Positions 1 to 52,615 of a DNA stretch of 64,000 nt are shown one piece after another (the stretch's first letter is position 1; each line of letters begins with the position of its first letter). The DNA comes from Pseudocercospora fijiensis CIRAD86. Taxonomy: Eukaryota; Ascomycota; Dothideomycetes; Mycosphaerellales; Mycosphaerellaceae. The position numbers were made by a program, and so were the translations under genes. The notes below the pieces were generated by a model that searched no databases, was not told the origin of the DNA, and was given only the letters and a program-made list of their open reading frames with translations. The DNA lies in contig NW_006921537.1 of the NCBI RefSeq assembly GCF_000340215.1, forward strand, positions 3,083,685 through 3,147,684. The letters are read 5' to 3'.

Positions 1-2
1 TA

Positions 3-1085
3 GCCGAGAACAACAATACTAGAGTTTAGGATACCGCGATAGAGCTTAATACTACGAATAAAGGAACTAAAAAAAGCGAGGAGATACTATACGTCGATCT
101 AGTAATAGGTATAGTCTTAGGGCCTAACGCTATAAACGATAAGCGCTAGGAGTAGATCGAGCATAGTTAAAGAGACGAGATACTAGTAAAGGGCTAAGGT
201 ATAAGTCCTATTAATCTAGAAAATTATAGTTAAAGCTACTACGAAAAGCTAGTAAGGATTAGAATCGAGACTAGTCGTCTTTATATCCTCGATATAGAGT
301 AGAAGTTTCTTTATTAGTATTAGAGCGAAGCCTTTGCGTCTATAAAGGCAAAGTAGCTTGCGATTAATGCGATCGGGGCTAGGTATCTAGAGACGGCAGA
401 AGTGTTACTATAGGAGGAAGGGGTATAGGTAATTATTCTATACTCGGTATATATAGCCGGCGTTCGTAGCCGGTAGATACTAATAGTTAAATAGAAAGCG
501 TTTCTCGAAGGCAGAGTGCTACTACTATATAAAATCTTTACTAAGGTAGAGAGGGCTTATATCCGGAATCTAAGCTGCTAGTAGGATAGGTTAGCGTTAG
601 AATTCTCTAAATCTCTATATAAGCCTCCGAAGGATTACTTATTTTAGCGATACGGCTTTATCTCGACTACTCCGTAGGTACCCGAAGAAGCTCGAGCGCT
701 CTTTAAGGTCTTTACTAAGAAGCGGAAGGAGTTCGAGGATTAGGATTAGTTAATAGAGCTATTAGTTAGTCTTAGGTTTCGTAGTTAGACTCGGCCTAAG
801 CATTTGCTTATTGAGTGTCTTATACCGAAAGAGGATAGATTAAGACTAAAAACGAGCTTAGATTCGTTAGGTATAGTAGCTCGGTTCCGTTAGTAGGAGA
901 GAGCCGCCGTATAGAAGGCAAAATTTAGGTAGTTAGGGTAGCTAGGAAAGAAATTCTAGTAGTTAGGCTAGCTAGGGTAGCTAGGAAAAAAAAATCTAGT
1001 AGTTAGGTAGCTAGGAAACAAAAAAAAGGTAGCTAGCTATTTACTGCCTAGCTATTCCTAACGATACGATACTATAAAAGAAAGG
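3..1085 (+). pseudogene. Unknown transposon-associated gene, RIP-inactivated
   Basis: A single frame can be followed from the window edge to about 1085, broken only by TAG/TAA codons at positions that look like former Gln codons. A 48-bp intron fits at 447-494: it starts GTATAT, carries the hairpin TAGCCGG(C/T) repeat, has the branch-like sequence ATACTAATAG and ends AAATAG, and joins exons in phase 0. The second exon has a readable stretch with motifs such as YGFISTTPQ and ALFKVFTKK, and a tail of short LGQ-type coding repeats (925-1035). I do not recognise the family. It lies upstream of the hAT transposase in the same frame class, so it could be an upstream part of that gene, but a shift of frame between 1160 and 1437 argues for at least one more intron or a separate gene. 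Confidence 0.4.
447..494 (+). other. Intron carrying the GCCGGC hairpin repeat (introner-like)
   Basis: Reading frame on both sides joins in phase 0. The 5' end is GTATAT, the branch-like site ATACTAAT lies about 15 bases before the AAATAG 3' end, and almost all the remaining intron is the inverted pair TAGCCGGC / TAGCCGGT. Splicing is inferred from frame continuity only. Confidence 0.5.
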
Positions 1086-1823
1086 GTGTTTCCCTATAGC
1101 TACTAGTATACATCTACTACTCCTAAGTCCTTACCTTACCGTACGAAACCTTAAAACATGCCGACCGACATTGTATATATACTAGGCGCTATACTAGGAA
1201 GGGTAATAACGAGACGATAGTCGAAATAGTCTAGTATACGAGCGAGATTACGATAACGTCGAGAGGAGGTCGTATACTTACCTTCGAGCCTATCGAGTCC
1301 TAGACGACGATTAGGGCTAGATTTATCCTCTCCGAATCCTAGTAGTAGGAATTCATTATAGGGTACTACTACCTAGTCCTTACCTTTACGGAGTCTAAGT
1401 AGAAGGTTGTTCGGAGATATAAGAATATCGAGTATTAACCCGGAAATCTTCGAAAAGGCTAGCTAGGCGTATCTTTAGAAACCCGAGTATATAGAGCAGT
1501 TTAATTAATAGGTCTATAAGATATAGTTCCCTTTATACTTACGTTTAAAGGAGTATAAACTCCGGAAGTACTCGATGCGATAGGGGAGTAAGGAGCGAAC
1601 GGATACATTCTAGAAGTTCTTTATAGAGGGGGCATTGTACCGTTATACGACTTCTCGACTTAAAGGTTAACTAGTAATTGTCTATAACTTCTACGGTTTA
1701 ATCTTAAAATACCCGAAACTAGGGAATAGGAACTTATCGCCTACGAACTATCTCTATTCTAAACGGTGTCGGGAATCTTAAGGAGAGAGGAGAGTTAATA
1801 TAGATATAGCGTTCTAGAAAGAG

Positions 1824-1975
1824 GTACGTCTTCTAAAATGCCGGCTATAGCTGCCGGCTACAGCTACCGGCTATAGCTGCCGGCTATAGCTACCGGCTAC
1901 AGATTCCGGCTACAGATTCCGGCTATAGATTCCGGCTACTTAAATTAACCGTAGAGGTCTAGCTAATTATTATAG
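1824..1975 (+). repeat. Tandem GCCGGCTA repeat inside an intron of the transposase pseudogene
   Basis: The intron begins GTACGT after AAAGAG and ends CTAATTATTATAG before an exon that continues the transposase frame in phase 0. Between 1839 and 1940 it holds eight to nine imperfect units of about 12 bases built on CCGGCTA(C/T)AG followed by CT(G/A) or ATT. This is the longest expansion of the repeat in the window; other introns carry only two units. Confidence 0.55.
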
Positions 1976-2909
1976 GCTACGCTTAAGGAAGCTCTAGGAT
2001 TAAAGGCTACCGATTTCTCCCCCGAAGACTTTAAGCAACTAGTAAACGAAATACTAGCTATAAACGCTCTTCCGGAAGACTTCTACGAAAGGGAGTCTAT
2101 ATAGAAGACATACCTATATCTTATAAACTACCCTCCCCTATTTCTTAGCGCGACAACCTAGCGTATTATATTCGAAAAGAACAAAGAGGCTACGTTAGAC
2201 GATATTCGGGAGATCCTCCGTAATACTCGCCGAGTAGCTATTACTATCGATAGCTAGTTAAGCCGGACTATAAGAGCCTCCTTCCTCTCGATTATACTAT
2301 ACTTTATTAATTCAGATTAGAAACTCTAGGAACCTACAATCGGATTCCCTAAAATTCTAGGTTCCTATACTAGTAAGGATATAGCGAAGCTTGTCTATAC
2401 GGTAATAGATAGGGTTAGCGTAATAACGAAACTAATCTCGATTACTACGGATAACGCTAGTAATAATCGAACATTGTATAGGGCGTTGTGTATACAATTC
2501 GCTCGTATATGTCTTTGAAATTACTAATTATATCGATAGGGTCGAGTACGTAGAGGAGATTATAAGGTCTATAATCTAGCTTAATCTTCCGAATATTAAG
2601 CTCGCTACGATTCCGGATACGCACGACAATACGCACGATAATAACGATAAAGAGGAGCCTATTAATAGCCCTAGCCCTATTAAATCGGAGCCGACGTCGT
2701 TACTAGTTGTATCCCTATAGAAGTTTCCCTATCTCGCTTATATAGTTTAAATCGCGATCCGAGCCCTCTTTAAGACGCTTAAAATTGTACTATTAAACGA
2801 CGACTAATAGAAGATCCTAGATAAGGATAAAGCAAAGTCGAAAGTCGAGAAACTTATTATAGCAATAAGACAGAATAAGGTAGAGAGCCTCGCTCTCGTT
2901 TTATATAAG

Positions 2910-2978
2910 GTACAACTTTTGTCCGTAGCCGGCACCTATAGCCGGCAATCTAGTATAGTTCTAACTCTTTTTCTCTAG
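2910..2978 (+). other. Intron with GCCGGC inverted pair in the transposase pseudogene
   Basis: GTACAA start, the pair TAGCCGGCACC-TATAGCCGGC in the middle, branch-like TTCTAACT and a CTCTAG end. Exons LVLYK and LRRLVIYT join in phase 0. The 69-bp size is typical of a fungal intron. Confidence 0.5.
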
Positions 2979-4322
2979 CTTCGTCGTCTAGTAATATATA
3001 CGAACTCGAGCTTATAGAGATATAACCGATTCGAGGCTATTTAAAAGAACCTAATCGAGCGCCCTAAAACCGATACCTAGAATATCGCATAGAATAAGCG
3101 ATAGTAAAAGCGGCCTCCTTAGCGCCTACTCCGTTTTACCTAAGACGTTAAGACCCGGTTCGATTCGACTTTCTATATAGTTACGAGGGGATATACTTTA
3201 CGTACCGCTCTCGAGATCTATTAGAGTTCCGAGGGTATTAAGTAGCTCGGCCTTACCGCCGCCGAATAGCGCTAAGTAGAGTATCTCGTCGATATTAGTA
3301 AGCATTACGCGAAGGTTACTACTACGATTAGAAGAACCCGAGGACCGACGATCTACCTTGTCTTTACGTACTATAACTAGCTCTTTAACGAGCTCGAGGA
3401 AACCGTAGCTAAGCTAGCTAAGAAGAGCGTTCCCTAGAAAGTAGCTATAACGAAAGCTATAGACAGCTCTTATACTAAGTTGTATAAATATTATAGTGCT
3501 ACCTTTAAGTCGTTCGGGGATATCTATAGTATTACGTACTTACTTAACCCGGTAGAAAAGGATATATACTAGTAGAGGCCGGAATAGAAGGCGGACGAGG
3601 TATAGCCGAAGCATTACTAGACTATTCTAGAAAAGATGTTCTACGAGCGTCGGAAAGAAACTAGTCTAAATATAGCTCCTATAAAGAAAAAGAAGGTTTA
3701 GAAGGCTCCGATATTATACCTATTTCGTAGATAGGAAGTAGAGGTAGAAGAGGAAGCAATTACTAAAGTAAATAAAGAAGAGTTCGATCTCTATCGGTAC
3801 GCGAGTAAGTACAAACCCGTAGGCTCGGAAAGAGGGCTAATAATCTCTAGATCTTACCGGTCTTCTAGACGAATTCGGAGACGATATTTTCGCTATATAG
3901 TAGCGGTTAGAGCCTAAGTTTCTAACGATAGCGTCGGTCGCTCGCGACGTCCTCGCTATCCCGAGCGTAGGTATAGGCTATAAGAGGTCTTTTAGTATCG
4001 CTCGTTACTAGGGCCGCTTTAATCGAATATACTCGCCTACTACCTTCGAATCTATTATAGTATTCCGATACTATCTCTTCTACTAGAATCGCTAAGGTAG
4101 GTTACTAAAGATTATACTAAAGGAGTTAATCGAGGAATTAGAAAACCTTAAGATCGAAGAAACCTAGGAGCGCGAAGAGAATACGAAATTTAGTCTAAGC
4201 GAAACCCTAATTAGCGATAACAAAGAGGAGGAGGGCGGAGGTAGAAGGCGATACCGGGTCGAGAAGCGGAAACGTATATAGGCTTAGAGTAGCTTTAAGG
4301 AGACGAAGCGTTTACGTATAAG

Positions 4323-4379
4323 GTAATATAGCCGGCGTATATAGCCGGTATATATCCGAAATGTATTTCGAATTCCTAG
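4323..4379 (+). other. Probable intron with GCCGGC inverted pair
   Basis: Begins GTAATATAGCCGGC, contains a second TAGCCGGT 12 bases on, and ends at TTCCTAG. The branch site is not clear and the downstream exon is short, so this intron is less certain than the others. Its value is the same repeat in the same position relative to the 5' splice site as at 447. Confidence 0.35.
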
Positions 4380-4700
4380 GACCTAAACAGACTAGTTGCT
4401 ATAGCAACCGACCCCGCTTACCTACGGACTATTTCTAATTCTCTATTCGCTCTTCCTCTTCTTCTTCCCTTTCCTTATATTCTTAAAGATAAACATACCT
4501 TAAGGATTCGGCTCTTCGGGCCTTCCTAAGCCGGCTACCTCCCCTTCCTTAAGCTACTATCCTTTATTCGAATCTAACGATAACCTACTAAGGCGGTTTA
4601 ATAGAAGACTATTTGTTCTAGAAGGCAAGAAGCATTAATATCTCCTTACGATTATATACTTATTAATTTTCTAGGTCCTACCGATATACCCTCGTCGCCT

Positions 4701-6030
4701 AAACGCGTAGATAAATATCTTTAAAGGCTAAAGGGTAAGGGTAAAGCAAGCTAAGTATAGGGAGACCGTAGCGAGAACGAGATATCGGAAGAGTAAGGCT
4801 CTCCGTAGTATATACGAAGGAAGGGGGTTCCTCGGAAAACAGTACCGAAAAACAAGAAGGCTATAGGTAGATAGGAGAAGGCTAAAAAGAGTAGGCGGAC
4901 GAAGACTATCGCGAAGAAAAGTTATCTTTCTATTAAAAGAAAGGGAACAAGGCAGGACTCGACGATAAAGAAGCGGCGCTTTAAACTAGGTACTATTACC
5001 CTTCGCTAGATCCGGCTTTTCTAAAACAAAAGAGGGACCGAGCTTTTAATCCCTAAGACTCCCTTCTAGCGACTCGTCCGAGAAATTATATTAGATTTTC
5101 GGTCTAGTATGCGATTTACGGCTAAGGCGATTAGTACTCTTTAGGAAGCTACGGAGGCATTTCTCGTAACCGAGCTTAAGCTTTTAAACCTCCTTGCTAT
5201 CTATACGAAGCGGGTTACTCTTTAAAATAAAGATATATAGCTTCTAGCTAAAATTCGGCGTCGGTTTATAGCGGATTAGTTGGAAATTGTATTTAGTCGT
5301 TAGATTAACCTAGGAGGAGGCCTATTTTCGCATCCTTTTGCCGGCTATAGGTACCGGCTATATTTCTAATTTTATCTCCGCGCCGTCTCTAAATCTAAGG
5401 TACGAAGTAGAAACCTAGCGCTCTATATTTACCCGGCTATTATAGAGACGAGCTATATTTAGATTAGTTTCTTCGTATATCGCGACCTAGCGGGTAGTAA
5501 GCGAAAGGGCGATAGAACGTTTATAATACGTCTCTATTTAGACCTAAAATACAAAGGTCCTAAGGAGCCCTAGTATCCTAACTATAAGGAGATTCTTTAG
5601 TATTAGCACTTTAATCCTCTATACTACGAGGCAGATAGTAAGCCTACGAGAGAGAAACTTTAACGAGAAATTCTCTATAATGCGTAGCGCTATTATATAG
5701 CTATAGATACGCACTAAGTCCGGTAACTCGAAGAAGAATTAAGACAGCGTATTAGCGACCGAGGAGGAGATCGATAGTATACTAGTAGAGTCGAGGTCTT
5801 ATAAGCGAAGCATAAGATAATATAGGCTCTTAGTCGTATAGAGTAACGTACTATATAAATAACTAGGCGTGCTACTCTTATTTACTTACGACCTATATCC
5901 TAGGATGCTCTTCTCGTACTTTTTATACTCTTTTCTAATACCTTACCTATAATCGCTCCGCGATAACCGAGTAAATATAAGCTATAGGATTTCCGCTCGG
6001 TACCTTAGCCTTCGAGATACGGCGGAGTTG
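4701..6030 (+). pseudogene. Histone-H3-fold protein with long C-terminal extension, RIP-inactivated (TE-A H3-1)
   Basis: One frame runs from at least 4701 to about 6025 with only RIP-type stops. Residues coded at 4830-4970 are a very basic tail (many Lys/Arg). At 4971-5265 the translation matches the histone H3 fold in order: KLGT-TLR-IR (H3 PGTVALREIRR), TELLI-K-PF-RLVREI (H3 TELLIRKLPFQRLVREI), MRF-A-AI-TL-EATEAFLV (H3 LRFQSSAIMALQEASEAYLV), then NLLAIYTKRVTL-NKDI-L (H3 NLCAIHAKRVTIMPKDIQL). The loop between the last two helices differs from canonical H3, and the tail is unlike conserved H3 tails, so it is closer in style to a fast-evolving variant such as CENP-A, though I cannot assign it. 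After RRRF the same frame continues for about 250 codons (motifs LYYEADSKPT, LEEELRQRIS), a domain I do not recognise. Gln codons have become stops, so the copy is dead. Confidence 0.7.
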
Positions 6031-6390
6031 ATTCTCTATAATACGTAGCGCTATTGCATAGCTATAGATACGTACTAAGTCCGGTAACTCGAAGAAGAAT
6101 TAAGATAGCGTATTAGCGACCGAGGAGGAGATCGATAGTATACTAGTAGAGTCGAGGTCTTATAAGCGAAGTATAAGATAATATAGGCTCTTAGTCGTAT
6201 AGAGTAACGTACTATATAAATAACTAGGCGTACTACTCTTATTCACTTACGACCTATATCCTAGGATACTCTTCTCGTACTTTTTATACTCTTTTCTAAT
6301 ACCTTACCTATAAGCGCTCCGCGACAACCGAGTAAATATAAGCTATAGGGTTTCCGCTCGGTACCTTAGCCTCCGAGATAGGGCGGAGTT
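5670..6390 (+). repeat. 361-bp direct tandem duplication
   Basis: Two adjacent copies, 5670-6030 and 6031-6390, both begin ATTCTCTATAAT and end GGCGGAGTTGA. Differences are nearly all C/T or G/A transitions, as expected if duplication preceded the last RIP. The unit is not a multiple of three, so it shifts the frame of the H3-1 fusion after its first copy. Confidence 0.85.
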
Positions 6391-6402
6391 GAATTTAGAG
6401 CG

Positions 6403-6660
6403 ATAGCCGGCACTCGTAGCCGGTATATAGAGACGGTAGTAGGCCTTTTCCTACTAAATAACTAGCTTGTTTAGTATAGCCTACCTAATATTTCTTATAT
6501 TTACTAGCAATAGGCCTAGGTTACTTATAAGATTACTATAGCTAGTAAAGGTATTACTAAAGAATATCTATACTATAGTAGGACACTATTATTACGCCGG
6601 CTATTTATTAAAAGGAGGCTTTCGCCTATTACTATACCGGCTATATATACCGGCTATATT
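6403..6660. repeat. Cluster of GCCGGCTA-type inverted repeats and 19-bp tandem repeats
   Basis: TAGCCGGCACTCGTAGCCGG lies at 6405-6424, followed downstream by CCTACTAAATAACTAG, which resembles a branch site plus 3' splice site. Further copies (GCCGGCTATTT, ACCGGCTATATATACCGGC) lie at 6596-6656. Just after them, at 6665-6720, a unit of about 19 bases (GCC-GT-CCTGCCTTTTTTA) repeats three times. No gene could be followed through 6440-6930. Confidence 0.45.
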
Positions 6661-7203
6661 TCAAAGTCTGCCGTACCTGCCTTTTTTAGCCGTGCCTGCC
6701 TTTTTTAGCCGTACCTGCCTTCTTTCCTTACTCTAACGTTACTATAATATAGGCTTACGCGAAGCTTACTCTATTACCTAGCGATATCGCGATACTACCT
6801 CTCTCGCTATATTCAACCTTCGTATCGATACCTATACCTCTACGCTCTATATCTACTACCTCCGTAATACCCTCGCTCTGCGCGCGCCTTCGTATACCTT
6901 CGTAACGCACTTTTTTCCTTAATTCGACGACTTTTATAATACCGAGTCTACTTAATTAAGTTACGACGCCTCGTAAGAAGGGACCTACTACTTCTACGGG
7001 TCGCAATAAGACCGGAAATAATAGAACGAGTATAGTATATTAACGTAAGAGGGCTGCTACTACTACCGCTAGCTCCGGTACTAGAAAGGGCGTCGCGAGC
7101 AAGGCTCCGCGTAAGACAACGGCGGGCAAGGCTCTACGTAAGACGATAACTAGCGCTTCTACTACTAGTAGCAATCGTACGAAGCGTCGATAGCGCCTAG
7201 GAA

Positions 7204-7307
7204 GTAAGTCCTATTTATAGCTAGTAGCGTAGCCGGTAGCGTAGCCGGTAGCGTAGCCGGTAGCTATAGCCGGCATTCTTACTATCTTTTTACTAATCCT
7301 TCTTTAG
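7204..7307 (+). other. H3-2 intron 1 carrying four tandem TAGCCGG units
   Basis: GTAAGT donor, TACTAATCC branch and CTTTAG acceptor are all intact. Removing it restores the LGTVALR signature of H3. The body holds GTAGCGTAGCCG repeated three times plus a TATAGCCGGC unit. This is the best-supported case of the repeat lying inside a real intron because an outside standard (H3) fixes the exon join. Confidence 0.75.
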
Positions 7308-7490
7308 CCGTAGCCCTCCGTAAGATTCGGTAGTATTAGAAGAGTTCTAAGCTCCTAATCCGTAAAGCTCCTTTCCGACGACTTATTCGCGAAATTGCCT
7401 AGGTTTATAGAACGGACCTTCGCTTCTAAGCCTCCGCGATAGACGCCCTTTAAGAGGCTATAGAAGCCTACCTAGTTCGTATCTTCGAAT

Positions 7491-7538
7491 ATATGTTTCT
7501 CTTCTACCTCTTTTCGGACTATACTAATACTATTTTAG
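7491..7538 (+). other. H3-2 intron 2 with RIP-destroyed donor site
   Basis: The acceptor side is intact (TATACTAATACTATTTTAG). The donor reads ATATGT where GTATGT is expected: the preceding base is T, so TG to TA is a RIP change. Removal of 48 bp restores the segment E-x-x-NLxAI-AK of H3 exactly. No GCCGGC repeat is present. Confidence 0.6.
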
Positions 7539-7850
7539 CGGTTAACCTTATAGCTATCTACGCGAAGTATATAACGATTATAGACAAGGATTTTAAAGCA
7601 CTCGATTAGATTCTAAAAGGCTAGAATGTCTATGTTCGAGATAGTGCTAGATAGGATAGATATACTAGTAGGAAGGATATTCGTAGTATCGTCTACAAGC
7701 TTTTCTATATACGAAATAAGCCGCTATTATACGGCGCTATATACCGCGCTCTAAATACTCTCTAAGTATACCTATATAGTATAGTATGCTTTATTAGCCG
7801 TATAGAATAGAAGTCTTCGAAAAACCCGTTAGTGCTTAGGAGTAAAAAGG

Positions 7851-7885
7851 CCGACTACGCTGCCGGCTACGCTACCGGCTACGCT
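7851..7885 (+). repeat. GCCGGCTACGCT repeat read as protein in H3-2
   Basis: Three units of the element-wide repeat lie in the coding extension of H3-2 and translate in frame as Ala-Gly-Tyr / Thr-Gly-Tyr units. The same sequence type is intronic at 7204-7307, so the repeat has been inserted or retained in both coding and non-coding positions. Confidence 0.5.
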
Positions 7886-8009
7886 ACTAGGTTTTATAAA
7901 GAACTAAAAGAAGATAGACATTCTAGTTAATTTGTATTAGTTTGGATTTTTATAAAAAGAAAACAAGGAAAAAAGGAGGAAGATTAAAGAACCTAATACT
8001 TATAGTTAT

Positions 8010-8474
8010 AGGTATTATCCCTATTCTCTAGACTATATTATATACCTGCTTTCGCAACTCTACCTAATACTCCTACTAAATATCCTTATACTCTACCTAC
8101 TAGAAATTCAACTAGGTACCTAGACCTATAGCTGCCTCTATATCTTTTACTATCTTCTATAGGTTAAAGGACTCCTCTATAGTAGCCTCTACTTCCTTAT
8201 ACAATACGAAGTTACTACCTGCCCTATCCTTAATATCTACTAAATAACCTAGAGTTCTAAGGAACGAACTAGCATTCGGCCGTAGTATAGCGAGTAACTA
8301 GTAGAACGCCCTATAGAGCTACCTTATAGCTGTTTCGTATATAGTACCGATATCGAGGGAGGAGCTATCCTAGTACTTAATATTAGAGTATAGTTTAGTA
8401 GGAAAGTGCTAGAACTTCTTAAGGAGAGCTTCGACGGAAATCGATAAGTTCTACCTAGATCTAGATAAAGACAT
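8010..8474 (-). pseudogene. Unknown short gene on the minus strand of TE-A, RIP-inactivated
   Basis: From an ATG at 8474 a frame of about 150 codons can be followed with stops only at likely Gln/Trp sites. It starts MSLSRSR and contains SSFLRTLGYLVDIKDRAGS and EVEATIEESF. The upstream side has a GCCGGC repeat at 8697-8730 that, on this strand, sits between GTAAGA and TTATAG like a further intron. I do not recognise the family. It may be the last gene of TE-A, facing the others. Confidence 0.35.
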
Positions 8475-8696
8475 TCTACTAAGTAGTTAGGGAATTAAAC
8501 CGTAAACGAAAGGATAAAATTCATACCTAAGGAGTGCAGTTTCCGAACTAAACTATAATGCCTTATATATATATATATGCTTTTGATTGGTTAGTGCCCT
8601 TAGCTAATTATCTATAGATTTAAGGTTATATAAGTACCTTTATACAACTACGTAGCCTAAGTAGGATTCGAAAATTCTATAAGTACTAAGGACTAA

Positions 8697-8730
8697 AAAT
8701 GCCGGCTACGCTGCCGGCTATACTACTAAG
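8697..8730 (-). repeat. GCCGGCTACGCT repeat upstream of the minus-strand TE-A gene
   Basis: Two units, GCCGGCTACGCT and GCCGGCTATACT. On the minus strand they lie between a GTAAGA and a TATAG and could mark another intron, unproved. Confidence 0.35.
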
Positions 8731-8817
8731 TCTTACAAAGGGCTTACTTAAAGCTACGTATATATTCGTACACTTCTTAAAAACCGATAAATTATATAGT
8801 TCGAACTAGCTACTTAT

Positions 8818-8893
8818 ATAGTTGCTTAGCAAACTAACCTAAACCAAACTAGAGTTTCGGCTTAGTAAACCAAACTAAACTAACCCGAACTAC
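8818..8893. repeat. Possible right subterminal region of TE-A
   Basis: Short repeats AAACTAAC, AAACCAAACT and AAACTAACCCGAACT occur in direct and overlapping order within 75 bp. Dense short motifs of this kind are usual near hAT ends, where transposase binds. No terminal inverted repeat partner is visible because the left end is outside the window. Confidence 0.3.
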
Positions 8894-8904
8894 TACGGGG
8901 TCTA

Positions 8905-11030
8905 GAGGAGACGTCGATATAGTCTTCTCGACCCTGTTTTCGTCGGAGGGTAGCGAGGTCTTTTATAAAGGTAGCATCGTTAGGGATTCGGCTCTAGAAC
9001 AGGTTAGTAGGCAAACCGTATACTAGTAGCTTACCTATAGACATATTAGACTTAAGGTCTAGGAACTATAAAGCCTAGAAGAGAGCGTTTGCCTTAGTAT
9101 CTAAGGAGTTAGCTAGGCTAGTACTATACTTTTTTATATATCTATTAAAGCGAAAGCTCTTTAGGTCGGATAACTTCCGCTTATAGGTAGGTAGGTTAGC
9201 TAGACCTAGGGTACTACTAATGTCGGTAGCAACATCTTCTATGTCGACCTCTAGAGTCTCTAAGACGACTAGGCTCTCTATAGGTAGGGTGCTAGGTACG
9301 GTGCTAGGTGCGGTGCTAGATCGGGTAGCGCGGTCTGTAGCTGTCTAGAGAGTCTTAGTTTTAGCGGTTAACTCTCGCTATTGCTTAGCCTTGTCGGCCG
9401 CCTTGTTCTTTAGCACTCTAGTAGGGGCTACCGTACTAGAGCGAGTAGGATTCTGCGGGCTCTTGCCCTTATTTTAGAACTAGGTTTAGGACCTTATAGT
9501 AGCGTAGACATCTATACTATTCTTAGTAACCGCGTAAACATTAGTAACTGCGTCCGGATCCTAAGAAACAAAGTTAACCTTAATAGGCTTAGTAGTACTA
9601 TTACTGCTCCGCTCCTTAACCTGTTTTGCCCTAACCTTCTAAGTTTCTCGTTTAGTAATAGCGGCTAGGGTACTGTTCCTAGTGTCCTTAAACTCGATCT
9701 TGCCGCTATACTTCTTCTTTAGAAGACTCCTAAGTTGAGGCAGCTTCGGGGCTCTACGGTCCTACTCGAAGTTAATCTTATCGCCCGTATCGGTATAGTA
9801 GAACCGACTATTAACTTATATAATAAGCTTCCTTTTAAGAAGCTCTTTCTAGATAGGGCAGTCCGATTAGATATATTTGAAACCGCCGCATATCTAGCAC
9901 TTGCTATCTAAGTTAGAATAGATCTTCTATATAGCGTAGACGTTAACTAAAGGGGCCTTAGGGTAGTTAGGATCGGAAACCTAGTAGACTAGTAGTATAT
10001 CCTTTAGTATACTAGTATTAATAACCTCCCTAACTCGCTATAATGCTTTCGCATTTAGGTTTAGCTAGGCTAGGGATTTAGCTAAGTCCGCGACGTCCTA
10101 AGAGTGTTTAGTAATAGTAGGAGTTATAGTCTTAGGACTACTTTGCGATTTAGGAAGGAACTTAGGTCCCTTACTTCCTATAGTATCTTTCCTAACCTAC
10201 GCTAGGTTATTCCTATCTTCGCTATAGATAAACTTCCTCGTATCGGCGGTACTATTAATGTCGGCCTTAATATATACTAGGACCTCTTTGTATTTCTAAA
10301 ACTCTTAGGATCGGACTCGCTAAGCTTATAGCGACGGAAGATACGCTAAGCTATAGGCTACGGCAATCCCTAGAGGAGTAGCCTCGTTCTCTAAGAGTTT
10401 TCGAGGTTACTCTATTCGATACCCTCCGCTAACTCGACAAACTCTCGGATATACCCCTTTAGGTCGTTATCCTTAGTGCGCCTTACTAAGTAGAGGGACT
10501 CGAGCTACGTACGACTGCCTTTAATGCGACGGCTATCGCGCTCCCGATACTCCCTTATAAAGGCTATCTTATAGGTCTCCTAGTTAGCATTAGACTTATC
10601 GTCCTTTTCTAGGTAGCTAACTAGGGTTTTAAGGGTTCGGTAAAGCTTAGAGGAGGTAGTCCTCGTAAAGGACCGAATCTTATACTAGTCGGATTCTCTA
10701 TCGAGCTCGTAATTAACTAAGCCTTCCTTAAAGCGCTTAATATATACTATAGCGTTCTACCCTTCGAATAAGGGATTTGTACTACTCCCTAGTTCTAGCG
10801 GGCGACGCTTACTCTAACGGAGAAGCTTAGTTTGCTTCTCTATTATCTTTATAAGGACAGTATAGAGCGCCTCTAGCGTAGAGGGCGTAGGAGGCTCGCT
10901 TATATTAACTAGTCGCTGCCTAATTTCTTCGTTAATAGGATTAGAGGCGTTTTCGGATTTAGAAGATTCCGCTAATTCTTAATACTCGTTTTCGCTAGAG
11001 CTAGAGCTTATCCGATTACTTATAAATTAG
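8905..11030 (-). pseudogene. Gag of TE-B, RIP-inactivated
   Basis: Aligned base by base with the gag region of TE-D (24545-26640). The frame is peppered with stops at Gln and Trp positions. Near 9880-9910 a CxxC-type zinc-knuckle segment can be traced, as in TE-D near 25510. It ends at the truncation. Confidence 0.6.
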
Positions 11031-34396: not shown

Positions 34397-35270
34397 CTAA
34401 GCTAGATCTAGATAGCTAAGACTATTATAGTCTAAGTCTATCTCTCTATCGGCAATTTCTTCCTTATTATTATCCTCCTTAATATTCTCTTTCCTAATAC
34501 CGTCTCTAGTACTAAGAATCTCTTCTATAGTACTATAAGTTAATTCCTTAATATTCTCCTTAGATGCCTTCTTAAGATAGGTATCTATAAGAACTTTTTC
34601 CTCCTCTTTATATTCGAAATTAAAAAAGTTAAGCCGTTTAATTAGATAGATATCGTCGTAAATATCGGTATAGAGATAGTAATCTCTAGCCGACTCGATA
34701 TTATTCTTAATAGTAGTATAGTTCTCGGGAGATACTATACTACTATCGAGAAATAGTCGAATAAAAGCTATACTTAATCTTAGTATATATATACAGTTTA
34801 ATACAAATCTATTATATATATTATACTTACTATAATCTCCAAAGTATAGCGAGTATCTTAGAATATATAGACTAAGATATTCGATTCTAGACACGATATT
34901 ACTATCGTTTAAAGAGTCGATATAGAGCCGAATATCTAGGCGAGAATTGAACTCGTCTAGATTATCGCTAGAGAAGACAAAGGCTATAAATATTAGTATA
35001 TAGACCTAGTATAGTATTCTATAGTATATTACCTTTAATTTTCCTATATTCCTTAATATCTTGTTGCCTAATATGTCTAATAAAGTAGGCAATTCGTAGT
35101 CGGTTTAAATATTCGATAATTTCTTTATTACCTTTCCCTCTATTACTTGCTAAGCTATTAATGATAGCCCTAATAGTTTTGTCTATTTTACTAGACTCCG
35201 CTATAGTGCTCTTATTAATAAACCTGTTAATAAAAGTAATAGAGGTTAAGGTATCGTCGAAGGTATACAT
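34397..35270 (-). CDS. Second gene of TE-E, intact two-exon protein of unknown function (274 aa)
   Basis: Exon 1 is 35270-35033 and exon 2 34983-34397. The 49-bp intron has a GTAATA donor, TACTAATA branch and TTATAG acceptor, and joining gives 275 codons without a stop, although neighbouring elements are riddled with them. The product starts MYTFDDTLTS, is Ile/Tyr/Asn-rich, has a central helix-rich region (YILRYSLYFGDYSKYN) and an acidic C-terminus (KEDNNKEEIADREIDLD). No family is recognised. A possible 5' untranslated intron (GTAAGT to TTATTAG, about 35335-35273) lies just upstream. It is divergent from the transposase, with the inverted-repeat element between. It could be a transposition accessory protein or a captured gene; preserved frame suggests it is young or was under selection before RIP. 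Confidence 0.7.
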
Positions 35271-35442
35271 TCTAATAATACTTAAATTAGTATATATATT
35301 AGTTTTTTTCTTCTATATTAGATACTTACTTGGTATAGTCGTAGTATAGTATACTATAGAATAGTATAGACTCTAGAGTATATAGTAGAGTATAGAGTAG
35401 TTGGCAGTAGTGTAATATACTAAGATAGTATAGAACAAAAAT

Positions 35443-36784
35443 TCAACTCTAGAGGGGTAGAGACCGAGTATATATATTACGCTCGCCTCTCGAATTAAGG
35501 TTTAGGTACAATATTATAACTATTAAATATTATATTATTGTCATTTCATACTAAAATAACTATATCACGATANNNNNNNNNNNNNNNNNNNNNNNNNNNN
35601 NNNNNNNNNNNNNNNNNNNNNNNNNNNNNNNNNNNNNNNNNNNNNNNNNNNNNNNNNNNNNNNNNNNNNNNNNNNNNNNNNNNNNNNNNNNNNNNNNNNN
35701 NNNNNNNNNNNNNNNNNNNNNNNNNNNNNNNNNNNNNNNNNNNNNNNNNNNNNNNNNNNNNNNNNNNNNNNNNNNNNNNNNNNNNNNNNNNNNNNNNNNN
35801 NNNNNNNNNNNNNNNNNNNNNNNNNNNNNNNNNNNNNNNNNNNNNNNNNNNNNNNNNNNNNNNNNNNNNNNNNNNNNNNNNNNNNNNNNNNNNNNNNNNN
35901 NNNNNNNNNNNNNNNNNNNNNNNNNNNNNNNNNNNNNNNNNNNNNNNNNNNNNNNNNNNNNNNNNNNNNNNNNNNNNNNNNNNNNNNNNNNNNNNNNNNN
36001 NNNNNNNNNNNNNNNNNNNNNNNNNNNNNNNNNNNNNNNNNNNNNNNNNNNNNNNNNNNNNNNNNNNNNNNNNNNNNNNNNNNNNNNNNNNNNNNNNNNN
36101 NNNNNNNNNNNNNNNNNNNNNNNNNNNNNNNNNNNNNNNNNNNNNNNNNNNNNNNNNNNNNNNNNNNNNNNNNNNNNNNNNNNNNNNNNNNNNNNNNNNN
36201 NNNNNNNNNNNNNNNNNNNNNNNNNNNNNNNNNNNNNNNNNNNNNNNNNNNNNNNNNNNNNNNNNNNNNNNNNNNNNNNNNNNNNNNNNNNNNNNNNNNN
36301 NNNNNNNNNNNNNNNNNNNNNNNNNNNNNNNNNNNNNNNNNNNNNNNNNNNNNNNNNNNNNNNNNNNNNNNNNNNNNNNNNNNNNNNNNNNNNNNNNNNN
36401 NNNNNNNNNNNNNNNNNNNNNNNNNNNNNNNNNNNNNNNNNNNNNNNNNNNNNNNNNNNNNNNNNNNNNNNNNNNNNNNNNNNNNNNNNNNNNNNNNNNN
36501 NNNNNNNNNNNNNNNNNNNNNNNNNNNNNNNNNNNNNNNTAGAATACCTTATACTATTATCTTAGGAAATATAATAATATAATACTTTTATTATAAAATA
36601 ATATTATTATCTTATTCTATTATCTTATCATATTATTATAACTGTATAATATTATATCGTTATATAGTTATTTTAGTATAACATTATAATAATATAACAT
36701 TTTATAGTTATAATATTGTACCTAAACCTTAATTCGAGAGGCGAGCGTAATATATATACTCGGCCTCTACCCCTCTAGAGTTGA
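35443..36784. mobile_element. TE-F: element with long terminal inverted repeats, interior unsequenced
   Basis: TCAACTCTAGAGGGGTAGA at the left end matches the complement of the right end, and the match continues for about 125 bp (past ACGCTCGCCTCTCGAATTAA) with few differences. Flanking ATT on both sides may be a 3-bp duplication. The interior is mostly the N-run. It may be a MITE or fold-back element, or part of a palindromic promoter region of TE-E, since weaker inversion symmetry extends some 80 bp outside both ends. Confidence 0.6.
35573..36539. other. Assembly gap (967 N)
   Basis: Unknown bases only. The gap lies exactly between the arms of the inverted repeat, which probably caused the break. 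Confidence 1.
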
Positions 36785-37018
36785 TTTTCTTTTCTATAGT
36801 TTTCTAGTATACTATACTACTAGACTACTATCTACTCTATACTCTATACTATACTAAGAGACCTTATACTATATACTATCAAGTCTATATACTTTGATAC
36901 ATACTAAACTATTTAAAAGAAATAATTTATTAAACTATTTATTATATTTCTATTTGCTAGTTATCTATACTATATACTATAAATAGCTAAGTTCTGTATA
37001 GAGCTTATATATATAATA

Positions 37019-46642: not shown

Positions 46643-46871
46643 TATAATAATATATAGTACTACTACTATTGTTATTACTAGTCTATTAGATTTATATTAG
46701 TTGAACTATATATATAGTTAGCTTAGAATATATATACGACTTAGAATATATAATATAAGTCCTAGATAGTATAAAATTACAACCTATAGATATAAAATTC
46801 TCCTATAGTTTAAAGAATTTATATAGATACTAGATAGTTTTTTTATATATTTATACAATGTATACAAACTG

Positions 46872-47357
46872 AATTCTTCTTAAAATTTAGTCCTAGACTT
46901 GCTAGACTGCTTAATCTAAGCGCTAGATAGCGTTAGATTCTCGCGGCCTTAAATTAGAGACCCCCCTAGAAGTAGGGCTTATATAAGCATTATAGGGCTC
47001 GGATAGTATTCTTATATATATATAAGATATATAGGACCCAAATTCTACCTAAAATGTAGTCCTAGACTTGCTAGATTGCTTAATCCAAGCGCTAAATAGC
47101 GTTGGATTCTCGCGGCCTTAAAATAGAGACCCCCCTGGAAGTAGGGCTTATATAAGCATTATAGGACTCGGATAGTATTCTTATATATATATAAGATATA
47201 TAGAACCTAAATTCTACCTAAAATCTAGTCCTAGACTTGCTAGATTGCTTAATCCAATCGCTAAATAGCGTTAGATTCTCGCGGCCTTAAAATAGAGACC
47301 CTCTAGAAGTAGGGCTTATATAAGCATTATAGGACTCGGATAGTATTCTTTTATATA
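46872..47357. repeat. Three 169-bp tandem repeats with internal hairpin in the right arm of TE-E
   Basis: Units start at 46872, 47041 and 47210 with AATTCT(A/T)C(C/T)T, exactly 169 bp apart. Each contains AATCCAAGCGCTAAATAGCG followed by TTGGATT, a near-perfect inverted repeat, and GGGCTTATATAAGCATTATAG. Differences are C/T and G/A. Confidence 0.9.
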
Positions 47358-49146
47358 TATCCGACTAAAATAAACTAAAAGAATATATATATATAGTATA
47401 GTATACTACTATTATAGTAATAAAAATAAAAATACTAAAAGAGAAAAAAAAACCTCTAGAGACGACTTTTTTATAGGGTTTAAGATAACCCCTAACTAAC
47501 GATAGTGTTTCTTCTGTTATATAGGCTATCTAGAGCCTATATAGGACTCGGATTAGTAACCCTAAAGGTTAATAGCTCCGAGAATTTCTTCGATTTCTTA
47601 AAGAAAAATTAGTAGTTGTTTTACTGCTATTGCTATAACTTACGATCGGCTATTAAATCCTCGATATTCGGAGTTGGAAATTAGATCATTTCGAAGTCGT
47701 TCGCAGCGGCAACTAAAAGTATTAGCAAAGCTAATAAAAAGTTAATAAAGTAAGAAAACAAACGTACCTTATCCTTCGAGGACTCGAATGCGTTCCGTAA
47801 GAGTACGGATCTCTTCCTTAAGGTTGTTAACCTTCTCGAGAAGCTGTTAGACTTTGCTAAGAGCGTTCTTAAGAGCAAAGAAGTCGCGGCGCTAGGTTTT
47901 GCTAAAGGAATTAGTTAGTAAAGAAAGACAGATATCTATAGCGTAGCGATATGCTTCTTAGGCGTAATACGTTCGCCGAGGGACCTAGCAAAGTCGTGCC
48001 GATAGTCGTAGGCATCAAACCCGCCCGGGTATCGTTAGGCGAGTCTCATTTCAAGTTTGTTTAGGATTCGTTTCTTTGTCGTTGTCCGTTGTTCGTCGTT
48101 CGAGTTTCAAGCTTGTTTCGAGAAAGGAACGACGTTCTACGGTCGCACAAGACGTATAGTAATACGTCGTGTACCCCGCTTTTATGTACCTTCCTAATAC
48201 GTAGCTAAGTAAGCGTAGGGGGGCCCGGGAGGGCTAAACAAAGCCTAAAATCCCGCCAAGAATTCTTAAACACTAATTAGTGAGAAACTATAAAATAAAA
48301 TTTATATACGCGTGCGGTATATATTAAACAATCTATAATTAAAATTTTAGCTAAATCCGTTAAGTATTCGTCTAAATATTTAAATCTAAGCGAAAGCGCT
48401 TTAAAAACTATTAAATATATCTTTTTTTTAAAAGAGTATTAGAAAATCGGATATCTTTAAAATAAAAGATATTATTATTTATTAATAAAAAAATTATTTC
48501 ATAAGTCTATTATTACTCTATATAGTATATTTTAGAATATTTTTATAATAAATATTATTGGTTTTTTAGCTCTTTATGCCTCTTACTCTCTATATATTAA
48601 GACTTAAATTAAATTAGTATAATTCGTAATTTTTTCCCTATACTATAGTCTATTTTTCTATTTCTATTTATAGGTACTTAATCTAATATATACAAAGTTC
48701 TACCAAATATTTCTTTTATTTTTAACTCTGGTATTATAAATATTTGTGGGGTAATATTAATGCTAAAGAAAACTAGATTTTTAGTACTATTCTATAATAA
48801 TTTTTTAGTATCTAGCATCTCTCTATAGTAGAGATATTAATTTTCTAGGATATTATTACTATAAATCTAAAGACTTGTGTCTTGGCAATAGTGTTGTATA
48901 TATCTATATTCTGTAGACTATAAAATACTAAAAAATATAAAGATTATATCTAATAAGGATGCACTTTTCGATAGTTTCTATAGCAATAGTAATTACTAAT
49001 AGTAATTAGTAATCACTAAATAGTAATTACTATTACTATTACTTTTACTATTACTATACGATTTTTAGAGAATTTACTAATTACTATTACTATTACTATC
49101 GCCGATTAAGCTTTACTATTTTACTATTTACTTTTACTATTACTAG
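47358..49146. other. Remaining right arm of TE-E, no gene recognised
   Basis: AT-rich. 47440-48250 is less AT-rich and keeps more CpA/TpG, with a hydrophobic minus-strand frame of 65 codons (47681-47878) that I do not trust, and several TTCGTCGTT-like repeats near 48060-48110. 48250-49146 is AT-rich and ends in the subterminal TTACTA motif cluster. Confidence 0.4.
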
Positions 49147-49169
49147 TTACTAAGGTTTGGACATCTCTG

Positions 49170-49177
49170 TATTCAAG
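49170..49177. repeat. TE-E target site duplication, right (TATTCAAG)
   Basis: Partner of TATTTAAG at 33648-33655; the one difference is CpA to TpA on the RIP-damaged side. Confidence 0.9.
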
Positions 49178-49190
49178 TCCACAACACAAG

Positions 49191-49759
49191 ATGCAGCTTA
49201 CGACGCTTGTCTCATTCCTTATTATAGCTTCTACAAGTACAGTATCTGCAGCCACCACAGGGTTCAGACCCAAGTACTATCGTCTCGAAGGATTGATTCC
49301 ACGTGACGCACTGGCACTGGCATTGGCATATTCGCCTGGTGACCACGATCCAAAGGGTGGTAAGAGACAACAACCCGAGCCAGCGGTGCATCATCAGCAA
49401 TGCTAATCCACCTTCATCGATTGCCATAGGTTGGTCGAAGTACGATCACGCATCGGGATGTCCACATAAATGTTGTAAATTGAATTACTACGGTAATGCC
49501 TGCGTAGGTCATAAAAGCAGCGACTCAACGGTTGCTTTGCTGATGATTCTTCTATCAGGAGGCCTGCTGTACAATTGATCCAAATAGTCCTCAGCTCCTC
49601 CACAACCCGAAGACTTCGAACGAATATAAAGACCCTCAGCCTGAGACTTCAACACCACCTTGCAAAATGACGAATACTTGCGTACCCATCTCTACTGGTC
49701 CCAAGACGCCTGCAAGACCGCCTTGCGCAAGAACGAACTCTTGCAAACCGCCAACTTGA
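49191..49759 (+). CDS. Small secreted protein with ten cysteines (147 aa), promoter displaced by TE-E
   Basis: Three exons: 49191-49359, 49430-49503 and 49559-49759. Intron 1 (70 bp) has GTAAGA, a TGCTAATCC branch and CATAG; intron 2 (55 bp) has GTAGGT, TTGCTGAT and ATCAG. Splicing gives 148 codons including stop. The first 20 residues (MQLTTLVSFLIIASTSTVSA) are a clear signal peptide. All ten Cys lie in the C-terminal half: C-x3-CC-x8-C-x2-CC, then PPCKMTNTC and PPCARTNSC, an internal repeat of the form PPC-x2-TN-[TS]-C. Size, signal peptide and even cysteine number fit an apoplastic effector or other small secreted protein; no family is recognised. The hAT insertion ends 14 bases before the ATG, so the native promoter lies at 33187-33655 and expression is probably lost or altered. 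The coding part is not RIP-damaged. Confidence 0.7.
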
Positions 49760-49861
49760 GAAACAACGGACAGTTGCGAGATGAGCCTCTTTCGAAGACC
49801 GGACCGGGTGTGGAATGGAGGAGTTGGCAGGAATGCAGGAATTCAAATGCAGTATGAAATT

Positions 49862-51691
49862 CTACCACCGATCAAGAATGATCATCGAAGTCTCCAGTCC
49901 CTTCAAAGTTGGTGTCGAAATCGTGCTACCATCGACCGACCACTCGACATCTCCCCAAAGCGTCTTCTTGACTGCCTTCCCATGCACTCCTTCCGGCAGC
50001 TGAATCGAGATCGTGCCCGCAGCGAGCTGATTGCCATAATTCAAATTGATCACAATCACCAACACACTCTTCTCTCCGACCCAAGCACTCGCATCAACCC
50101 TCTCAGCACCCTTCACCACCAACCCCCCAACCCTCCGCTCCCCAAGCACAAACCCAGCAAACTCCCCACTCGTCAGAACCCCCGCGAACCGACTCGTAAC
50201 ATCCAAAATCTCATCCGAAGTAGGAAAATCCCACATCACCGATCCCATCGCCCGATGATTAATCGCGACAGCAGTCATCACGATTTCTTCCGCGGCGGTG
50301 GGGTACCGGGTCCAGAACGTCTCGTTTCCAAAAGCTTGCGGGACGGTCCAATGCGCTTTCTGCCAACCGAGGACATCATCAATGGCATGGAAATGTTCGA
50401 GGCGATCGGAAATGTCTTCGAAAACGCCGTTGCAGTCGTCGCAGCCGCAGCAGCCGTAGGTGGAGTTGCAGGGGGTGTCGTAGACGGTGGACCACGAGGT
50501 GTTGGTGCTGATGGGGTAGACGTCTGGCATGATGATGTCGGCGCCGGAGGCGTAGGATTGGTAGTGGAAATCGTAGCAGTTGAGGGCCATGGAGACGGGG
50601 TGGTAGAGGTCGAGGGATCGAACTTTTTCGTAGGCGGTGGGGAGGCTGTTGAGGGCGATGGATTTGCCGTCGGGTTCGTCGGCGATGTACCAGGAGAGGA
50701 TTGAGGGGTGGGATTTGAGGCGGTTGACTTGTTCGGTTGTGTTGCCGATGCCGTGTTCGAGGTAGAGGACGTCGTAGTGGAAGTAGAGGGCGAGCTGTTC
50801 GGCTTTGTCGAGGTATGGTTGGAATTCAGCCCATGGGAAGGGAAGTTGGCCTAGGCTTCCTGTTGGGACTATGTGGAGGACGTTGTAGCCGAGTTTACTG
50901 AAGTCTTCGAGGGTTGAGACACTGGTGTTGAAGTAACGATCCCATTGTACTGCATATGTATGAGTGATGCAATCTACCACAAAGGGTTAGATACGTACCA
51001 TAGTAAGTGTATGGAAAGAAAGGCTTGAATTCCTTCGATGATGCGTTGCGAACGGCCAAGCCGCCGACAAGATTGTCTATGCGCACAGCAGTGCCATTAT
51101 CGCTCCGAATTGGAAGCACAATGAGCTGCGTTGAAGCAGTGAACGTCTGATTACTTTCAGAAACGGCCTCGACTGTAACATTGTATGGCTCGTGCTTTGC
51201 AGAAATGGACGAGAGGTCGAAATCCACCTCTGCGATGCTGCCTAGGGGGATAGATGTTGGGCCATAGCCGAGCAAGGACTTTCCACCCAGCATGATGTCA
51301 ATCGAAAGTTTTAATGGGACATCGTTGTATGTGCTTTGGCTCGATGACTTAATGGCAGTCCCAACCAGGTGAGATATGGAGGCGTTTACCAGAAAGCTGC
51401 CATGCTTCTCATCATCCAGATATATACTCATTCGCGGAGTGACTTTGAGGTTCAATAATGGCTTCGCCGACCGTGATGGCGCCTCGAATCGGCCTCCTGG
51501 GTTGAATGATGCATTTCTGAGTCGTGGTCAGCACACTCAATGCTGAAGTCTATGCTGGATGAAGCTCACGTTGCTCGGTATGCTTTCCCGCACCAAATAT
51601 CGACCCCTGGCGGATTATTGAATTGGGCAACTTGGGCCGAACAGGTGCAGGCAGCCAGAACTATACAGACCAGGGAACGATAGAACGACAT
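49862..51691 (-). CDS. Secreted glycoside-hydrolase-like protein (575 aa)
   Basis: Exons 51691-51570, 51516-50999 and 50949-49862; introns of 53 and 49 bp (GTGAGC...CTCAG and GTACGT...TGCAG). The start at 51691 gives a signal peptide (MSFYRSLVCIVLAACTCSA); an in-frame ATG at 51712 is an alternative. The N-terminal third is beta-rich, like a carbohydrate-binding or sandwich domain (LNLKVTPRMSIYLDD, many N-x-S/T sites). Then a (beta/alpha)8-type region with YYVQWDRYFN, GYNVLHIVPTG, and WYIADEPDG, whose Glu after Asp is the usual acid/base site of clan-A type barrels; also ADIIMPDVYPIS and GSVMWDFPT. The C-terminus is a beta-rich tail (LVIVINLNYGNQ). Family and substrate are not identified; assignment rests on the barrel motifs. 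Convergent with the small secreted-protein gene, about 100 bp apart. Confidence 0.75.
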
Positions 51692-51712
51692 CTTGCAGAC
51701 CAAGACTGTCAT

Positions 51713-52615
51713 GTTTTGCCCGAGCAGTCATCGTAGGTCGGATAACTTATGAGGCGGCAGCAACACGACATCCATGTAAGCAAAGCAACACCGGGATCCC
51801 CAGCGAGTGTCACGGTCCACGTGCTTGTCCATACAATGCGACCTCATGTCGCAACACAGATGGCAAACTGCGGAGAAGATGTTTAGCCGGGAAAGTGATG
51901 AAGAGATAGTACTAACCGGCACACGTTATTGGAATGTAAAGTAACGAAATGGTTATTGCTAATCAAATGATTCAAATCTCCTCTTGAACCCATGCTGCCA
52001 TGCATGCCGCCTCTAGGGATCATGATTAGCATCAACCATCCACACTTCATCACAAAACATTGATCGTAGCTGTGTTATAACCTGCTTAACCCCAGCCCCC
52101 GTCCGACCTAACAAAAGTCGCACTATCGACATCGAAAATCTCATTCACCTGCCTATAAGAAGAAACTTCAATGCTTCTTTCGCAAACGTTATTCTCGCAG
52201 ATCCGTATCATTATCAATCCCACCTTTCCGTATCTCCCCCACAAAGTGCAGAGCAGAGCAGAGCAGAGCAGAAAGAAATGATCGCAGGCTGCGAGATCGC
52301 TGGATCGACGAGAGCGAATGCGAGACCAGCTGAAGAGAACTCATTTCAGGAGCGAGAGATTTGCCTTTCATCATAGAGCCGAGAACAGCCAAGTGAGGAA
52401 GGAGTCTTCAGCAGATAGTGTTATGTAGATCAGTTGTGCCTTTGAGATTCCCAGCAGGCGACAACAAGATCGCAGCGAGCTGATGGAGTCACGTGGCAGA
52501 CACCTACATATACGACAAAAAAAAAGGTAAACATGCTCGAATGACCCTGTCATCATAAAGAAGCCAGCCAGTCCACAAAATCCATCCATCCAGCAAGATT
52601 CTTCCAGCAACTCAT
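51713..52615. other. Intergenic region, no gene recognised
   Basis: Normal base composition. Contains the upstream region of the glycoside-hydrolase-like gene and the 3' side of the M35 gene. A pentamer AGAGC is repeated about five times at 52250-52271. Short open frames here lack splice, signal or family support. Confidence 0.5.

Follow-up and report, generated by a model that had tools for sequence, protein, structure and literature searches.

A hAT-type transposon of Pseudocercospora fijiensis CIRAD86, 9,980 bp long and damaged by repeat-induced point mutation (RIP), carries two histone H3-type frames, H3-1 and H3-2, and one short surface of the second, residues 76-82 in loop 1, appears to have been driven to change while the elements radiated, a proposal to which the codon positions of the changes give moderate support. 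The copy described here lies in a 64,000-nucleotide stretch of contig C6 (C6:3083685-3147684), which we call the window and to which coordinates without a contig name refer, whilst the genome searches were made across the 30 contigs (73.9 Mb) of the host genome. The element is almost certainly a member of the published H3-carrying hAT family of this species (PMC6710886). An original prediction, made from the sequence of the window, knew of no described fungal DNA transposon with two such genes, a statement overtaken by the two H3-like copies of that family (PMC6710886). As this transposon and both of its H3 copies are already in print (Dhillon et al. 2019), what is new here is the intron reading of H3-2 and the loop-1 pattern.

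Histone identity of the two frames

The original prediction had recognised two RIP-damaged H3-fold frames and proposed a histone profile search for them. Read through with X at stops, both stand above the cut-off of the Pfam Histone profile (PF00125, 26.4 bits): the first frame (within window 4692-5333) scores 75 bits (E 7.7e-21) and the second (7309 onward, intron B read through) 64.9 bits (E 1.1e-17). Their best relatives in the PDB are histone H3.3C (E 4e-25) and H3.1 (E 4.5e-22), respectively, and the matches listed (60 of 176 for the first frame, 60 of 175 for the second) are H3 chains only. When the 8,904 of the element's 9,980 bp that lie in the window were searched with Pfam in all six frames, stops being translated as Q or W, no transposase domain rose above cut-off and the two H3 frames were the only loci to reach any cut-off, so their H3 identity is far beyond chance.

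Histone H3 is universal in eukaryotes, and the host gene lies on contig C6 as a 411-nt coding sequence (CDS) in three exons. H3-1 matches it at 54 of 97 residues, a count to which reading stops as Q adds a few identities, and has two extra residues ahead of alpha-1; H3-2 matches it at 67 of 121 residues from residue 8 on (X at stops). Transversions among host H3, H3-1 and H3-2 are near-equal (53, 44 and 51 of 258), which fits one H3 capture as well as two. Basic N-terminal tails are present, as predicted: the H3-2 tail can be recognised as H3 from residue 8, keeping the spacing of K9, K14, K18, K23 and K27 with S10 lost, whilst the H3-1 tail was not aligned with H3 by BLASTP and only loosely by phmmer. 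A single-sequence structure model of H3-1 (stops as Q) had a mean pLDDT of 49.8 and was too weak to build on, as was a search of a large protein collection, presumably poor in eukaryotic proteins, whose 66 homologue candidates included none at E 0.001.

The centromeric H3 variant (CenH3/CENP-A) has a longer loop 1 than H3. Loop 1 of both frames is ungapped against host H3 over residues 76-85 and does not have the CenH3 loop length; with only H3 chains among the PDB matches listed, the centromeric resemblance suggested earlier did not hold up, and a CenH3 identity is rejected because loop 1 has the canonical H3 length. Elsewhere in the genome, a stop-free histone-family match at C5:606604-606795 (85.7 bits, profile 59-122), which falls outside the 150 host-H3 matches that were scored, is probably another core histone.

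Codon-position pattern of H3-2

RIP makes transitions and no transversions, and selection was therefore scored on purine/pyrimidine differences (transversions). The elements of the genome fall into five subfamilies: A, to which the window copy belongs, B, found at about a dozen places and entered with one or two copies in most tests, and C, D and E, represented by one copy each. The high counts of the A-B alignment at about 5470-6550, which is non-homologous as the two B copies are without a duplicated block found in A, were discarded.

Change in H3-2 is concentrated at loop 1. Window 7401-7445 differs by 11, 10 and 7 transversions of 45 between A and B, D and E, respectively, and the adjoining 45 nt of alpha-2 by 0 in each comparison. 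At residues 76-82, which were picked after inspection and in copies that share descent, codon positions 1+2 are variable in 9 of 14 columns versus 17 of 158 in the rest of the fold (p 1.3e-5), position 3 is not raised (2/7 vs 15/79, p 0.62), and a permutation across all 7-codon windows gives p 0.023. Towards the end of the fold, residues 106-130 have transversion columns at 3 of 50 positions 1+2 versus 9 of 25 positions 3, which lends moderate support to purifying selection having acted on the C-terminal part of the H3-2 fold.

The pattern extends to more copies. Nine further copies, read over 126-nt stretches and including B elements, showed additional loop-1 variants, and across 23 copies residues 76-90 were variable in 22 of 45 columns versus 5 of 69 in the flanks. 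The states found (stops as Q) were Q/V/L/I at residue 76, D/V/F/G/A/S/Y at 77, R/Q/I at 79, T/A/I/V/L at 80 and L/H/Y/I/F at 82; Phe84, Gln85 and Ser87 were fixed, and Asp81 and Arg83 were kept in 22 of the 23. A genome pattern search, restricted by design to A-type flanks, gave 274 matches, and at codon 77 the 57 with letters shown had Asp 48 times, Val four times, Ala twice, His once, Ile once and one more altered codon, the nine non-Asp cases being in related copies and not independent events. Elsewhere, minority transversions within the A family are uncommon, with counts of 6 in 14,438 cells for H3-1, 21 in 16,994 for the transposase and 34 in 10,655 for the H3-2 stretch.

Both genes may have encoded working proteins while the element radiated into subfamilies, with the H3-1 fold little changed, a reading that has moderate support. 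The H3-1 fold shows 0-1 of 101 position-2 changes in each of six pairs, too few for a test by itself, and the A-B indels within the coding parts read (3, 6, 21, 3 and 3 nt) are all five multiples of three; a 1-nt A-B indel at 6919 is outside the coding part read.

Predicted introns, stops and probable origin of the two genes

The two introns proposed earlier for the second frame were refined by sequence signals (7204-7307, intron A; 7491-7538, intron B), and we infer that H3-2 was spliced at both. All ten A copies, as well as B_C12, D and E, have GTAAGT as the intron A donor; for intron B, copy C4:4149848 has the donor GTATGT, two other copies have GTATAT, and one copy has the acceptor CAG. 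Eleven further loci yielded too little for the H3-2 alignment (seven nothing, two short pieces that were dropped, and two B copies), and B_C17, left out of the first alignment for coverage, was included later. The '16-AA insertion' described for copy 2 (PMC6710886) is better read as the 48-nt intron B, exactly 16 codons long. Captured copies without introns, a trait given for the P. fijiensis H3-carrying elements in PMC6710886, are represented here by H3-1 and, on sequence signals, not by H3-2, and the intron reading takes away the transcript-capture argument for copy 2.

Host intron 1 falls at residue 8, the point where H3-2 homology starts (host exon 2), and host intron 2 splits Gly44 in phase 1, one codon from H3-2 intron A, which splits Thr45 in phase 1. 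Because intron A lies one codon from a host intron and homology begins at host exon 2, H3-2 is not a simple retrocopy; it is best explained as deriving either from captured genomic H3 that ran from exon 2 through the intron to exon 3 or from another intron-bearing H3 gene, and H3-1 as deriving from an intronless copy.

Of 19 A copies, the 17 with translation in frame at 5277-5279 all have the H3-1 stop there, and so do B, C and D, whilst the H3-2 stop at 7622-7624 is shared by all ten A copies and by the only B copy whose reading extends to it. Both shared stops, either of which may be of RIP origin, give nearly H3-length C-termini, and downstream of about 7660 out-of-frame indels of 17 and 13 nt separate A from B; the C-terminal extensions that the original prediction had given to both proteins are rejected on these grounds.

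The element, its transposase and its copies

The predicted transposon block at 1-8893 is indeed a transposon, but a longer one, which begins 1,076 bp before the window and stops at 8904. Its inverted ends are 20-bp terminal inverted repeats (TIR; TAGACCCCGTAGTAGTTCGG / CCGAACTACTACGGGGTCTA), shared by other copies, and the window copy has the 8-bp target-site duplication (TSD) of the hAT superfamily, GAGGAGAC; among the copies with both ends in view (n=6) the TSD was exact in two, matched at 7/8 bases in one and was absent from three. Window 1-8893 has 0.17 of the expected CpA and 0.15 of the expected TpG, whilst both reach 1.19 at 50-59 kb. This depletion marks the block as RIP-affected and, with RIP-type stops throughout the copies read, agrees with the predicted RIP damage of the frames.

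The motifs at 1946-4329, recognised by eye, we take to be those of a hAT transposase. When five transposase and 5' pieces were searched against profiles, only two matches below cut-off were returned, a weak trace of Dimer_Tnp_hAT in the dimerisation region (E 0.029) and an unrelated and better SelB-wing_3 match from another piece of the element (E 0.012); two PDB searches made with pieces of this kind brought no useful match. A read-through frame at about 160-930, 5' of the transposase, is without a Pfam or useful PDB match. The H3-like frames travel with the transposase, as had been suggested: in the window copy and in all 20 other loci whose upstream flank could be read, 21 of 21 together, H3-1 is preceded by the C-terminal region of the transposase. 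Between A and B the dimerisation region differs by 3 transversions in 234 sites, and the transposase outside it by 27/366 before and 15/225 after.

A DNA search with 4701-7930 gave near-full-query matches of 94-100% identity in 38 of 40 scored candidates, the window copy included, a lower bound given 844 candidates in a first look. In A copies the interval from H3-1 to H3-2 contains a tandem duplication of 361 bp (window 5670-6392), and BLAST of two B copies found no stretch homologous to the duplicated block. Modules of the 12-13-nt GCCGGCTA type, possibly transposase-binding repeats, are scattered over window 1-8904, near both element ends and in clusters at 1838-1939 and 7218-7273, the latter within H3-2 intron A; a short GCCGG-type motif has 27 matches in the 8.9 kb of element versus 2, 5, 7 and 10 in other stretches of 5-21 kb. 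Subfamily B is clustered on the small contigs C17, C20 and C23 (0.33-0.83 Mb), which hold nine of its 11 best places, and two places on C23 (L051 and L054) have an identical loop-1 sequence. Outside the element, the window holds a GC-richer island with long open frames amid AT-rich, RIP-affected DNA (49000-59000, 45-56% GC), a GC minimum of 10-16% at 35001-37000, and a 169-bp tandem repeat of about three copies with 91% matches at 46833-47360.

Features of the H3-carrying element in window coordinates
Feature	Position	Strand	Remarks
hAT-type element, window part	1..8904	+	8,904 of 9,980 bp; 5' end 1,076 bp upstream, C6:3082609
hAT transposase remnant (putative), several frames	1946..4329	+	C-terminal dimerisation region about 3862-4095
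H3-1, intronless H3-like frame	4692..5279	+	stop TAG 5277-5279
H3-2 exon I, N-terminal tail	6957..7203	+	homologous to host H3 from residue 8
H3-2 intron A (predicted), GTAAGT...CTTTAG, phase 1	7204..7307	+	holds 12-nt repeat, number varies
H3-2 exon II	7308..7490	+	alpha-N, alpha-1, loop 1, alpha-2
H3-2 residues 76-82, loop 1 / LRS surface	7400..7420	+	hypervariable among elements
H3-2 intron B (predicted), 48 nt	7491..7538	+	acceptor TAG; donor RIP-type changed in window copy
H3-2 exon III, last part of fold with TAG stop at 7622-7624	7539..7624	+	
Target-site duplication GAGGAGAC	8905..8912	.	same as the 8 bp preceding the element 5' end

Possible function and rival explanations

The full explanation that we put forward, tentatively and at somewhat short of even chances, is that the element encoded once-functional H3 variants and that the loop-1 patch of H3-2 evolved against host readers. 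Element-made H3 variants would replace host H3 in nucleosomes, most usefully on the element's own DNA, and the exposed patch of H3-2 would keep changing as host chromatin readers bind there, with silencing factors of the BAH type or deposition factors as candidates. The loss of ribosomal DNA silencing (LRS) surface is H3 72-83, where mutations alter yeast silencing and where Sir3 has been argued to bind (PMC2587916), and the BAH domain of Orc1 contacts Q76, D77, F78, K79 and T80 (PMC6602975). The changing residues of H3-2 mostly coincide with these positions, which favours a once-functional variant with one face in conflict with host readers. The codon-position pattern likewise gives indirect support to the ideas of the original prediction that the element may have made its own nucleosomes or resisted silencing. 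That transposon-encoded H3-2 was under diversifying selection on its LRS face (76-82) against host silencing or assembly factors, an arms race of which hundreds of RIP-killed copies would be the fossil record, would go further and seems to us on the unlikely side.

Several results weigh against this explanation. Sequences are few (B, C, D and E as given above) and the region was chosen post hoc; the contrast of loop 1 with the rest in the ratio of positions 1+2 to position 3 is not significant alone (p 0.15), and loop 1 against the whole A-B alignment, non-homologous spacer included, gives p 0.018 and 0.060. The loop-1 excess is about 2.5-fold over intergenic A-B change (32/360), with a few intergenic windows equal to it, and the H3-2 introns are more conserved than neutral expectation (1, 2 and 0 of 138 for B, D and E), which makes the neutral rate uncertain. 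The tails gave no codon-position signal, and change in H3-1 was too scant for a test. As a control, the transposase outside the dimerisation region was without clear codon-position bias (by position, 9, 7 and 11 of 122 in the middle, 6, 2 and 7 of 75 in the tail), which points to limited power of the transversion method at A-B divergence. Deletions of 53 and 1 nt interrupt the H3-1 tail of D, and the H3-2 fold of E contains an insertion of 7 nt. In yeast, changes of D77 to G, V or N strengthen telomeric silencing, the opposite of escape (PMC2587916), which leaves the direction of any effect unpredicted.

A close rival, possible if rather doubtful, is passive transduplication, in which host H3 was captured by accident, carried, amplified and destroyed by RIP without ever being useful to the element, the view argued in PMC6710886. 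Internal stops occur in 149 of the 150 scored host-H3 matches, the sole exception being host H3 itself, and the absence of stop-free transposon copies among them also counts against once-functional variants. The intronless H3-1 resembles a captured transcript, and the near-equidistance of the three H3 sequences fits old captures followed by drift, whereas a transcript origin of H3-2 is disfavoured by its introns. Dead cargo, moreover, should not show splice signals in H3-2 or solely in-frame A-B coding indels, nor would the position-3 bias in the C-terminal fold of H3-2 and the position-1+2 bias in loop 1 be expected of it. Improbable in our view is a deposition specificity like that of centromeric H3, with loop 1 tuned in each lineage to fit a chaperone or the DNA, thereby steering the variant to particular chromatin. 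The part of the fold that varies here is the one that is adaptive in CenH3, and the targeting domain in Drosophila (PMC549713), but neither frame has the longer CenH3-type loop, both being ungapped against H3, and the published survey describes insertions without site preference (PMC6710886). The copies, 274 by exact pattern match and 784 in PMC6710886, are numerous, and extra H3-like protein or RNA might have upset host H3 supply or heterochromatin whatever the loop-1 sequence; altered H3 dosage was raised for P. tritici-repentis by Manning et al. (PMC3538342); such a dosage effect, which we consider very improbable, leaves the local change at residues 76-82 and the conserved rest of the fold unexplained.

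If the loop-1 pattern holds in more species, these elements would no longer be seen as accidental captors of a housekeeping transcript, the published reading, but as transposons that retained nucleosome proteins of their own and went on evolving them. The copies would then also be a source of natural variants with which to ask, in filamentous fungi, by what host factor the surface of H3 72-83 is read.

Comparison with known systems

Besides PMC6710886 and PMC3538342, a literature search showed, among the titles and abstract openings listed, no further report of H3-carrying transposons. In P. tritici-repentis, an H3L gene with expressed sequence tags (ESTs) lies in a hAT element (Manning et al. 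2013, PMC3538342). As in P. fijiensis, a hAT transposase and an H3-like gene lie between TIRs, the histone is neither canonical H3 nor CenH3 and has tail insertions, and the extra open reading frame (ORF) of unknown function recalls the frame at about 160-930 here. The P. tritici-repentis element, however, is 5.6 kb long, with a single H3L gene and near-identical copies (PMC3538342), and PMC6710886 describes it as dissimilar to the elements of the Mycosphaerellaceae. Likeness to CenH3/CENP-A lies in fast change centred on loop 1, seen there in some lineages (PMC549713), although loop 1 has the canonical H3 length here.

The nearest system is the family of Dhillon et al. (2019), for which 784 RIP-inactivated H3-like copies are reported in P. 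fijiensis across 471 hAT elements, every full-length element having two, together with the same capture event in five related species (PMC6710886). Those elements are hAT transposons of about 9.5-9.9 kb with a 20-bp TIR, an 8-bp TSD, RIP damage and two H3-like copies, and the host H3 given there, a 411-nt CDS in three exons on scaffold 6, corresponds to that on contig C6. The two accounts differ in that intronless transcript capture and a 16-residue insertion are described there, whereas copy 2 is read here with an intron; in that DUF659 is reported there with no dimerisation domain identified, whereas a weak trace of one is found here; and in that the word 'loop' is absent from the main text there, whereas a loop-1 pattern is described here.

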